Shown here piece by piece: positions 5,098 to 53,701 of a DNA stretch of 64,000 bases (positions within the stretch are counted from its first letter, which is position 1; each line of letters begins with the position of its first letter). Location: assembly GCA_030148985.1 (NCBI GenBank), contig JASBSJ010000044.1, positions 19,007 to 83,006 of the forward strand, written 5' to 3'. Both the position numbers and the translations under genes were made by a program. The stretch is from Sphingopyxis sp. Its GTDB lineage: Bacteria; Pseudomonadota; Alphaproteobacteria; Sphingomonadales; Sphingomonadaceae. The notes below the pieces were generated by a model that was not told the DNA's origin, ran no database searches, and worked only from the letters and a program-made list of their open reading frames with translations.

Positions 5098-5523
5098 TCA
5101 TATTGTCTCCTTTGTGGCTTTAGCGAAGCCGTCGTCGCGCAGCACGGCGTTCACGACCGTCATGTCGGGACCGCCGCTGACGTCGATCGCGCCGCCCTTC
5201 AGCACGCGGACGATCGTGACGCCGTTGAGCGCGCGGTCCATCGCGATGCTGAACTGATGCGTGCGCCCCGTCGCGATCGCGCGATCCCATGCGGCGGCGA
5301 AGCTGGCGGCGTCCGGCCGCTCACGCAGGCGATAGGCCGAGGCGCGGCCCATGCCGACCGCGCGCGCCGCCTTGCCAACCGAACCCATCGCTTCGAGCGC
5401 GCGAATGAAATTGGCCTGCGTTTCGGGTGTCCAGCCGTCGGCGCGGCGGCGGTCCCTCGGGACGGGGGTGAAGGCGAGGCAGGTGCCTGCGAGAAGCGGA
5501 GCGGGTGGGGCGGTGTGTTCCAT
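5098..5523 (-). CDS. Small helix-turn-helix-like protein, unknown
   Basis: 141 aa. The central part (WTPETQANFIRALEAMGSVGKAARAVGMGRASAYRLRER) reads as a homeodomain-like/Psq-type HTH. It resembles small phage-terminase-like or resolvase-type HTH proteins and is followed by DAASFAAAWDRAIATGR. The C-terminal half has no motif I recognise. Similar proteins are common singletons in sphingomonads and are thought to bind DNA. It lies between katG and a REP-type repeat, with no operon partner. DNA binding is inferred from the HTH only. Confidence 0.65.
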   Translation of the reverse strand: MEHTAPPAPLLAGTCLAFTPVPRDRRRADGWTPETQANFIRALEAMGSVGKAARAVGMGRASAYRLRERPDAASFAAAWDRAIATGRTHQFSIAMDRALNGVTIVRVLKGGAIDVSGGPDMTVVNAVLRDDGFAKATKETI

Positions 5524-5600
5524 CGGCCAGTTTGAAGCATGGCGGAGTGAAGTAGGAAAGGCCTATTTTGATGTTGGATTTTGGGTGGGGAGCGGCCGAT

Positions 5601-44910: not shown

Positions 44911-45066
44911 TTCGCGCAGAGGCGCAGAGATCGCAGAGATTCGGATTCACGCGGAGACGCGGAGGAAGAGAGAGAATGGCGGCATTGCCGCCTTTTATTT
45001 TTCTCTGCGAACTCTGCGCCTCTGCGCGAATATCTTCTTCTCCGCGCCTCCGCGCCTCCGCGTGAA
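44911..45066. repeat. Interleaved long inverted repeats
   Basis: Two arm pairs cross one another. TTCGCGCAGAGGCGCAGAG (44911-) pairs with CTCTGCGCCTCTGCGCGAA (-45030). TTCACGCGGAGACGCGGAGG (44946-) pairs with CCTCCGCGCCTCCGCGTGAA (-45066). The order left1-left2-right1-right2 gives a pseudoknot topology rather than nesting. With the next repeat it fills the 306 bases between the AHSA1 and holin genes; no gene fits here. Confidence 0.7.
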
Positions 45067-45101
45067 TCTTATAATTTGTACGTCATGCACCGAAGGGACG
45101 G

Positions 45102-45191
45102 CGTCGCCCCCGCGCAGGCGGGGGCCGCTATCGGTTTACGCAGCGATGTCGAGCAAGCCCTCCAGCGGCCCCCGCCTGCGCGGGGGCGACG
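45102..45191. repeat. REPIN-like inverted repeat
   Basis: A perfect 28-bp inverted repeat with arms starting CGTCGCCCCCGCGCAGGCGG at 45102 and its complement ending at 45191 around a 34-bp spacer. Each arm also folds into its own hairpin (CCCCCGCGCAGGCGGGGG). Confidence 0.75.
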
Positions 45192-45198
45192 GCTTAAC

Positions 45199-45612
45199 TC
45201 AACTCTCCACCCCCTTCGCCTTCCCCCACGCCCGCGCTGCGGTGTAGCCCAGATACCCCGTCGCAAACAGCGCGTAGAGCGGTTCGGGGATGCCGGCGAG
45301 ATAGGCGTTCATGCCCCGCGCGATGCCCTCCGCCATCTCCGGCCGCACCGCGGCGATCAGGCCCATCGGGATGGCCCAGAGCAAGAGCGCATACATGACA
45401 TAGAGGAAGCTCGGCCGCGCGCGGCTGGTCCAGGGGTCGGCGCTGTTCGCCTCGGCGACGATCGCGGTCATGCGCGTGCGGATCGCTTCCATTTCCTGCG
45501 TGCCTTCGAGTTTGAGCAGTTCGAGCTTGGCGCGGTCGCGCGCTTCGGGGTCGGGGATGATCTTGTCGATCAGCTTGGCGATCGGGCCGATCAGGCCTTC
45601 AATAATGCTCAT
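45199..45612 (-). CDS. Phage-type holin (3TM family)
   Basis: 137 aa. An amphipathic N-terminus (IIEGLIGPIAKLIDKIIPDPEARDRAKLELLKLEGTQEMEAIRTRMTAIVAEANSADPWTSRARP) is the recognisable signature of the 3TM holin family. Two or three hydrophobic segments (FLYVMYALLLWAIPMGLIAAV, LYALFATGYLGYTAARAW) follow. Holins permeabilise the inner membrane so that endolysin reaches the wall. It lies 56 bp downstream of a GH108 muramidase gene on the same strand; no other phage genes are near. Confidence 0.87.
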   Translation of the reverse strand: MSIIEGLIGPIAKLIDKIIPDPEARDRAKLELLKLEGTQEMEAIRTRMTAIVAEANSADPWTSRARPSFLYVMYALLLWAIPMGLIAAVRPEMAEGIARGMNAYLAGIPEPLYALFATGYLGYTAARAWGKAKGVES

Positions 45613-45668
45613 ATGGGTGTTCCTTTCATCCTTAACTTGTCAAACTTGTCCCCTGGAGGCGTTGGAAA

Positions 45669-46244
45669 TCAGGGGTTTGCATCGCCCACGCGGTTGGCGA
45701 GCCAGCCGTAGAGAAAGGCCTCCTGGCTGGGGCGGCGTTCGGCGAGCGCGATGTAGCGTTCGCCCTGCAACGCCTCCATCGCGCGGAGCAGGACGGTCTC
45801 GCCGCCCTTGCCGCGCGCTTTCAGCAAGCCGTCGAGCGCCGACAGCGTGCGCGGGCCGATCGCGCGGTCGACCGCAATGTCGGGATAGTCGCGCGCGGTG
45901 CGGTTGAGCGCGTTGAGCGCGCGTTGGAGAAAGCCGGCGGCGGTGGCGGTGCCCATGTTTACGCCGGTGTCGAAGAGCTCGGCGGCAATCGCGGGCGCGC
46001 GCAGCGCGACGCGGTCGAATGCGGGGCGCAGCCAATAGAGGCGGCGATAGATGGCCGCGGCGGTGTCGCGCGGCAGCGCGCGCATCGCGCCCGCATAGCC
46101 CTCCGCCCGCGCGACCGCCTCGGTGATTCCCCAACAGGTCGGGCCGCCGCGGTCGGCGGGGTGGTTTACATATCGGCCTTCGCGGTCGATGACGGCGTCG
46201 ATCAGCGCGTCGGCGTCGCAGCTTGACGGGTGGGGTCGTGGCAT
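45669..46244 (-). CDS. GH108-family endolysin (N-acetylmuramidase)
   Basis: 191 aa from MPRPHPSSCDADALIDAVIDREGRYVNHPADRGGPTCWGITEAVAR, start chosen by the CAGGAGCG Shine-Dalgarno. The catalytic Glu sits in REGRYVNHPADRGGPT, and the second half carries LFDTGVNMGTATAAGFLQRALN, the GH108 plus peptidoglycan-binding pattern. It cleaves the peptidoglycan glycan strand. A Rhodobacter capsulatus GTA endolysin, to my recollection, has the same domain. It pairs with the downstream holin and has a LexA-type box upstream. Confidence 0.9.
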   Translation of the reverse strand: MPRPHPSSCDADALIDAVIDREGRYVNHPADRGGPTCWGITEAVARAEGYAGAMRALPRDTAAAIYRRLYWLRPAFDRVALRAPAIAAELFDTGVNMGTATAAGFLQRALNALNRTARDYPDIAVDRAIGPRTLSALDGLLKARGKGGETVLLRAMEALQGERYIALAERRPSQEAFLYGWLANRVGDANP

Positions 46245-46278
46245 GATTCGCTCCTGTGGTTCAGCTAGAAACCGTAAC

Positions 46279-46293
46279 GAACCATATAGGAAC
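46279..46293 (-). promoter_or_regulatory. LexA-type SOS box upstream of the lysis genes
   Basis: The sequence GAACCATATAGGAAC reads on the minus strand as GTTC-CTATATG-GTTC, the alphaproteobacterial SOS box GTTC-N7-GTTC. It is 35-49 bases before the endolysin ATG. The + strand quinone reductase gene starts 23 bases on the other side, so it could also be a target. Confidence 0.7.
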
Positions 46294-46315
46294 AATGTAG
46301 GAAAGGATTTTCGCC

Positions 46316-52568: not shown

Positions 52569-53129
52569 TCACAGGCTGCGCATCAAGCGCACCGCGACCG
52601 CGGCCCACGGCGGGTTACTGACGACCTGCTGCCGCTGCCCGGTGCCGAGCGGGAGCAGGTGGAGCTTTTCGCCATCGACGTTGAGCAGGCGCGCGAAGAA
52701 GAAGCGGCCGGCGGGGCGGGGGACGAGCAGGTCGCGGTTGAGCGCGCTGGCCCAGTCACCCTCGATCCGGCGGCACCAGATTTCGTCGCCCGCGCGATAG
52801 TCGCCGATCGACGAGGTGACGCGCACCGCGACCATATCCTCGCCCGGCCGCGCGGCGAGCGCCTGTTCGGTGCGCGTCGGCGCGTGCGCGCCGTCGGCGC
52901 CGAGCAGCGCGGTGATCGTCAGCTGCGCATCCTGCGGCAGGCGGACGAGTTCGGCGGCATCGACGCCGAGCGCTGCGGCAATGCGGTTCATCCAGCCGAG
53001 CGACAGCGTCCTTGTCCCGGTTTCGAGGCGGCCGATCGTCTGCGCGGTCGTCGGCGGATCGCAGCGCTGCGCGACCTCCTCGAGCGTCAACCCCTTCGCG
53101 CGGCGGACGGTTCGGATGCTGTTGATCAC
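52569..53129 (-). CDS. XRE-family regulator with S24/CI-like C-terminal domain
   Basis: 186 aa from GTG 53129. The N-terminal XRE HTH is MINSIRTVRRAKGLTLEEVAQRCDPPTTAQTIGRLETGTRTLSLGWMNRIAAALGV. The C-terminal half (VAVRVTSSIGDYRAGDEIWCRRIEGDWASALNRDLLVPRPAGRFFFARLL) looks like the beta-rich S24/LexA-CI fold; I see no clear Ser-Lys dyad, so autoproteolysis is not assured. It is divergent from a DUF6456 gene with a palindrome between them, the layout of a phage-type repressor and its target. Confidence 0.85.
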   Translation of the reverse strand: MINSIRTVRRAKGLTLEEVAQRCDPPTTAQTIGRLETGTRTLSLGWMNRIAAALGVDAAELVRLPQDAQLTITALLGADGAHAPTRTEQALAARPGEDMVAVRVTSSIGDYRAGDEIWCRRIEGDWASALNRDLLVPRPAGRFFFARLLNVDGEKLHLLPLGTGQRQQVVSNPPWAAVAVRLMRSL

Positions 53130-53146: not shown

Positions 53147-53159
53147 AACCAAATCGGTT
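53147..53159. promoter_or_regulatory. Possible operator between the XRE and DUF6456 genes
   Basis: AACC-AAATC-GGTT is a small dyad 18 bases before the XRE start. The 89-bp divergent region also has CTTTCCTACAT, a sequence that appears inverted next to the SOS box at 46.3 kb. Confidence 0.4.
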
Positions 53160-53218
53160 TTTTCTTTCCTACATAATCATCCAATGTCAAGCCCCGTGTC
53201 CAACCGAAGGAGACAGAG

Positions 53219-53701
53219 ATGACCGCACGCCGCCTGGAATCGCGCATCCATCCCGACGACCGGATTGATCCCGGCAAGACGGGGCCGCAGGTGATGCGGC
53301 ATGTGACCGTCAATGTCGCCGAAAGCCCGATTGCCTGGCTGGCCTCGCGCGGGCTGCTGACCCCGGCCCAATTGCTGGCGGGCGAGCGGCTGCGCGCCGA
53401 TTATGAACGCGCGGGGCTGGCGGCGCGGGTGACGATGCGCTGGGACGCGGCGCCGCCGGGCAAGAGCCGCGGCGGCGCGCGCGCGGCCGATGCGTCGCTG
53501 GCGCGGATCGACGCGCACCGGCGCTTTCACGGCGCGCTCGGCGCGGCGGGGCCCGGGCTTGCCGACATTTGCTGGCGCGTGATCTGCGCGGGCGAGGGGA
53601 TCGGCGGCGCCGAAAAGGCGCTCGGCTGGCCCGCGCGGTCGGGCAAGCTGGTGCTGGGGCTGGCGCTCGACCGTCTCGCGCGTTTTTACGGGACGGGGTA
53701 G
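53219..53701 (+). CDS. DUF6456-domain protein
   Basis: 160 aa with RBS GAAGGAGA. The sequence ESPIAWLASRGLLTPAQLLAGERLRADYERAGLAARVTMRWD, then PGLADICWRVICAGEGIGGAEKALGWPARSGKLVLGLALDRLARFYG, is the DUF6456 signature. From memory, this domain occurs in the alphaproteobacterial GTA activators GafA/GafZ, where it contacts RNA polymerase. I hold that link at moderate confidence. It is divergent from an XRE/S24-like regulator. Confidence 0.85.
   Translation: MTARRLESRIHPDDRIDPGKTGPQVMRHVTVNVAESPIAWLASRGLLTPAQLLAGERLRADYERAGLAARVTMRWDAAPPGKSRGGARAADASLARIDAHRRFHGALGAAGPGLADICWRVICAGEGIGGAEKALGWPARSGKLVLGLALDRLARFYGTG

Follow-up and report, generated by a model that had tools for sequence, protein, structure and literature searches.

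In Rhodobacter capsulatus the endolysin and the holin of the gene transfer agent (GTA) RcGTA, i.e. rcc00555/rcc00556, are encoded outside the structural cluster (PMC6363796, PMC9638019), and GafA (rcc01865), which has a divergent neighbour (rcc01866), binds the gafA, GTA and lysis promoters (PMC6363796) and matches proteins annotated with DUF6456 (PMC9638019). In C. crescentus the GafA-family activator GafY/GafZ is controlled by RogA, which combines an HTH with a LexA/cI-like part without cleavage residues (PMC9632790, PMC11150451), and C. crescentus, the host of CcGTA, has no holin/endolysin and lyses through LypABC (PMC13236601). RcGTA-like clusters are widespread in Sphingomonadales, for which gafA homologs and GTA head-tail clusters are already known and xseA was proposed to help lysis (PMC9765227); in what our search covered of that study (Kogay and Zhaxybayeva 2022), neither a holin/endolysin module nor an operator nor a partner of the XRE type is mentioned, and the portions of the open-access literature covered by our search contain no description of how these clusters are switched on or released.

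Here we analysed a window, i.e. the whole stretch of 64,000 nucleotides, from a Sphingopyxis MAG (73% complete, 86 contigs), which has a holin/endolysin pair like R. capsulatus and unlike C. crescentus. ORF and family searches of the window place the two genes adjacent to each other on the minus strand: a holin of the GTA_holin_3TM family (45199..45612, 137 aa; PF11351 2e-32; PHROG 3427 holin) and an endolysin with ATG start composed of a GH108 muramidase and a PG_binding_3 domain (45669..46244, 191 aa; PF05838 4.3e-26, PF09374 4.5e-19; PHROG 315 endolysin). The same searches revealed no phage structural genes in the flanks, the neighbours being alaS, an AHSA1 gene and a quinone-oxidoreductase-like gene (qor). 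The sequence-only reading had described an orphan holin/GH108 pair with no phage genes nearby, which the family matches and the chromosomal neighbours bear out, and had stated that the R. capsulatus GTA endolysin and holin likewise lie outside the structural cluster, in agreement with the published data cited above. The endolysin is present in 74/80 Sphingopyxis genomes and in further Sphingomonadaceae; in the loci compared the same qor gene adjoins it, and in the Sphingopyxis loci the holin is almost always beside it. Two genomes (G212 and G257) have a GTA and lack a GH108 homolog. In most other Sphingomonadaceae genera sampled (L283-L302) the promoter leads straight into a GTA_holin gene and the locus has no GH108 match. 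The intergenic region of the window at 44917-45195, immediately downstream of the holin, is rich in repeats, among them inverted GC-rich ones.

We were able to locate the GTA cluster itself on contig C21 of this genome, where a GTA hub gene matches TIGR02218 (2.5e-59) and where a TIGR02217 match (1.6e-57) is also present. A GTA capsid/terminase cluster lacking lysis genes, which the sequence-only reading had suggested searching for, is thus present in a complete, RcGTA-like form: TerS, TerL, portal, protease, HK97 capsid, tail genes, gp12 (Rcc01695 family), gp13 and gp15 lie at ~6.5-22.6 kb, with portal, protease and gp15 named from sequence and gene order and with a weak match for gp14, and our search of C21:1-40000 yielded no convincing endolysin or holin match. 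As the GTA_TIM family (PF13547) gave a single weak hit in 201 genomes and misses Sphingomonadaceae, it was dropped as a GTA marker and TIGR02218 together with the capsid protein was used instead. TIGR02218 matches were found in 67/80 genomes of the genus, and across the 201 genomes of the family the co-occurrence of the holin with the GTA hub gene is moderate (108/27/39/27, p=0.002, ignoring phylogeny).

The regulators likely to govern this system are encoded within the window, 7 kb from the lysis pair. An XRE regulator of 186 aa, a RogA-like candidate repressor, is encoded on the minus strand (52569..53129; HTH_31 1.5e-10) and diverges from a gene on the plus strand for a DUF6456 protein of 160 aa, a GafA-family candidate GTA activator (53219..53701; PF20057 1.1e-41), an arrangement which recalls gafA and its divergent neighbour and which recurs in 30/30 loci compared. 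The DUF6456 gene and the holin are often separated by 5-15 kb; two genera have the DUF6456 gene by the GTA cluster. Unlike GafA, which has 382 residues and a DnaA-like N-terminal region, the Sphingopyxis protein has no N-terminal domain match: DUF6456 is the only domain found in its 160 aa, and a DnaA-like N-terminal and a sigma-like C-terminal part do not occur together in this chain. The N-terminus of the XRE protein matches HTH_31/HTH_3, and its structure model (pLDDT 81.7) has the lambda-186 hybrid repressor, LexA and the phage 186 repressor as best fold matches (E 2e-5 to 9e-4). In an alignment with an approximate LexA sequence, read by eye, a conserved Ser appears to be missing and A/G to stand in place of the catalytic Lys; the hhalign match is not significant, and therefore the fold match carries the likeness to LexA/cI. 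The XRE repressor is thus probably LexA/cI-like and non-cleavable, similar to RogA, making it a better candidate than LexA for regulating the lysis pair.

Compared with RcGTA, the common element here is a dyad, AACC-N5-GGTT. In the space separating the two divergent regulator genes it reads AACCAAATCGGTT (53147..53159), and these 13 bases recur unchanged in the GTA promoter at C21:22741, where AACCAAATCGGTTA lies upstream of TTGACA; a TTTCCTAC box follows upstream of the DUF6456 gene (53165..53172, plus strand). The dyad is present between these two genes in 27/30 loci, 25 of them perfect and 2 with one mismatch. Searching the genome for AACC-N-WWW-N-GGTTW returns four distinct sites, one in the GTA promoter, one in the XRE/DUF6456 region and two in promoters of TerS-like HTH genes. 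The lysis promoter carries a degenerate Sphingopyxis form of the dyad, TTCC-TATAT-GGTT (46280..46292, minus strand), next to TTTCCTAC (46297..46304, minus strand), a putative -35-like box which the comparison of upstream regions shows to be conserved. Aligning the endolysin upstream regions gave TTTCCTAC-N7-CC-N-ATATGGTTCG as the constant part, and the conserved lysis-promoter element is TTTCCTAC-N7-CC-N-ATATGGTT, in which the left half of the dyad is NNCC and not AACC; of 43 Sphingopyxis loci, all retain the CC and 42 retain GGTT.

In other genera the full dyad is found in 19/27 endolysin promoters and in 13/16 holin promoters, and also in G018 and G024. For these loci, the background rate of a perfect dyad is 0.7% of 100-bp windows, a figure that includes the true sites. 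Among the GTA promoters, 17/20 other genera have the dyad with either GGTT or GGCA as right half, placed before a conserved TTGACATCGT-like box, the left half being TACC in one genus; since many genera have the GGCA right half, a search upstream of TerL for dyads with GGTT only gave few sites. Altogether, the common dyad recurs at lysis, GTA and regulator loci across about 20 genera. The dyad, rather than TTTCCTAC, is the GTA-specific part of the promoter. Taken as a GTA-specific motif, TTTCCTAC was rejected, as it is likewise present before many short HTH genes and before genes resembling mltG, lepA and thiolase (named by reading their sequences). The TTTCCTAC-N16 promoter type before the mltG-, lepA- and thiolase-like genes (L195, L199, L203, L208, L222, L225) suggests that Sphingopyxis has a broader class of such promoters, in which the start codon of leaderless genes always lies at 36 nt, and this fixed distance points to TTTCCTAC acting as the -35 box.

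Judged from the DNA sequence, the lysis, GTA and regulator genes would be co-regulated through the common dyad. Because this control site is common to the GTA cluster and to its probable regulators, the pair probably is the GTA exit machinery; we consider it likely, with good though not full confidence, that holin and endolysin serve to release the resident RcGTA-like GTA by lysis, as a module encoded apart from its cluster and placed under RogA-like and GafA-like regulators via the dyad. We propose a model according to which the non-SOS XRE repressor would silence the DUF6456 gene, the C21 GTA promoter and the lysis promoter via AACC-N5-GGTT. Upon loss of RogA-like repression, the DUF6456 protein together with RNA polymerase would activate the GTA genes and the TTTCCTAC lysis promoter, the holin would permeabilise the inner membrane and the muramidase would then degrade the wall, resulting in the release of particles. 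The dyad-binding protein, the order of events, the trigger and lysis itself are what we infer in this model. The arrangement differs from the Caulobacter system, in which the RogA target repeats are GGAA-N4-TTCC and for which no operator common to rogA, the GTA promoter and the lysis promoter is described.

Genomes that have lost the GTA allow the lysis pair to be viewed apart from its presumed cargo. TIGR02218 is missing from 13 genomes of the genus, of which ten have no intact GTA capsid gene by capsid search (G202, G205, G224, G227, G237, G254, G255, G258, G274, G183), the other three being ambiguous. A full-length endolysin is kept in 7/10 of these GTA-lost genomes and the lysis-promoter element in 9/10, and of the three without a full-length endolysin, G255 has a gene interrupted by an internal stop, G274 a frameshifted one and G183 no homolog; DUF6456 is absent or disrupted in 5/10 (G202, G205, G224, G255, G274) and intact in four. 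The median pN/pS of the endolysin is 0.315 in GTA-lost (n=9) versus 0.224 in GTA-positive genomes (n=56; Mann-Whitney p=0.0015), and endolysin pN over qor pN differs likewise (p=0.0002), both p-values being optimistic because each value compares one locus with the window sequence and phylogeny is left uncorrected; for the GTA-positive set, loci were first chosen by query similarity and the remaining loci of the genus were then added. By this measure, endolysins in GTA-lost genomes are less constrained. No difference was found for the holin, with pN/pS 0.126 in GTA-lost genomes versus 0.103, nor for qor.

These data bear on the alternative that the pair mediates a GTA-independent programmed lysis, be it vesicle or DNA release, a tailocin-like or an altruistic process, which merely uses the same regulators. 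The persistence of pair and promoter in most GTA-lost genomes, the strong constraint on the holin therein and the four intact DUF6456 genes are in favour of it. Against this, recent loss of the GTA would also explain the persistence, endolysin constraint is weaker after GTA loss, with the disrupted genes of G255 and G274 in addition, and five of the genomes have a decaying DUF6456 gene, so that we regard this explanation as improbable; given how often GTA-lost genomes retain the pair, it may still have some residual role independent of the GTA. Release of the GTA, the reading we prefer, has in turn several observations against it, i.e. the retention of the endolysin in GTA-lost genomes, the unchanged holin constraint, the NNCC left half, the genomes G212 and G257, the moderate co-occurrence and the non-specific TTTCCTAC. 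It is supported by a holin family whose very name refers to the GTA, found here beside a GH108 endolysin, by the C21 cluster without lysis genes, the common dyad and the weaker endolysin constraint after GTA loss. Where the sequence-only reading had left the choice between a GTA release module and another damage-triggered lysis system, these results favour the former.

A LexA trigger had been read from a GTTC-N7-GTTC motif (46279..46293, minus strand), at which LexA was to bind and to couple DNA damage to lysis. The pattern does exist at this position inside the promoter, it matches the alphaproteobacterial LexA consensus exactly (a pattern that is not derived from this genome's own SOS genes), and in R. 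capsulatus LexA affects RcGTA production via CckA (PMC9638019). As a conserved LexA site it does not hold: it is found in 6/43 named Sphingopyxis loci, 11/54 genus genomes and 0/27 endolysin promoters of other genera, whereas the overlapping ATATGGTT is kept in 53/54 genus promoters. The alleged box arises where one variable base upstream of TTCC chances to be G, and we judge it fortuitous. The window contains 3 GTTC-N7-GTTC matches versus 1.42 expected, with 20/100 shuffles reaching 3, and the whole genome has 41 forward and 38 reverse matches versus 22 and 28 for the reversed control; with counts this near to chance, a bare match is weak evidence. As the left half-site varies among orthologs, control of the lysis pair by SOS/LexA is not supported and appears very unlikely.

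A remnant of a decayed prophage is the least probable origin of the pair, as its presence in 74/80 genus genomes, the same qor neighbour in the loci compared, purifying selection, the conserved promoter and the lack of other phage genes near the pair all contradict it, although sphingomonad viral contigs have endolysins up to 79% identical and one Sphingopyxis (L073) has a second endolysin copy and a portal-like gene in the same 10.5 kb locus; apart from such separate prophage copies we saw none of the prophage remnants around the locus in relatives that the sequence-only reading had named as speaking against its proposal.

The common dyad ties the regulators and the lysis genes to the structural cluster, giving a single regulon that can be tested and that pairs a RogA-like repressor of the Caulobacter type with Rhodobacter-type release by holin and endolysin. 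Should the model hold, loss of the XRE repressor alone should turn the whole system on. Operator, XRE partner and the link to the lysis module were not found in those parts of the open-access literature that our search covered. A bolder proposal, which we advance tentatively and hold to be rather doubtful, is a previously undescribed one-operator GTA regulon of Sphingomonadaceae, in which AACC-N5-GGTT would unite regulators, GTA, lysis genes and orphan TerS-like HTH genes and of which the lysis part would outlive the GTA as a stand-alone programmed lysis.

Short TerS-like HTH genes, many of them apparently leaderless, have a TTTCCTAC promoter, as seen in the window on the minus strand (5099-5524, promoter 5535-5559) and for further genes at G000:C40:28238, C46:18287, C81:1739 and in G212 (locus L247). 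The pair on C46 and C81 and one TerS-like gene of G212 carry the full AACC-N5-GGTT in addition, and since some of these orphan genes bear the full dyad, they may belong to the GTA regulon. In the GTA head region of G204 (L127) the dyad lies ~3.8 kb upstream of TerL, apparently split off by inserted genes including a transposase-like ORF.
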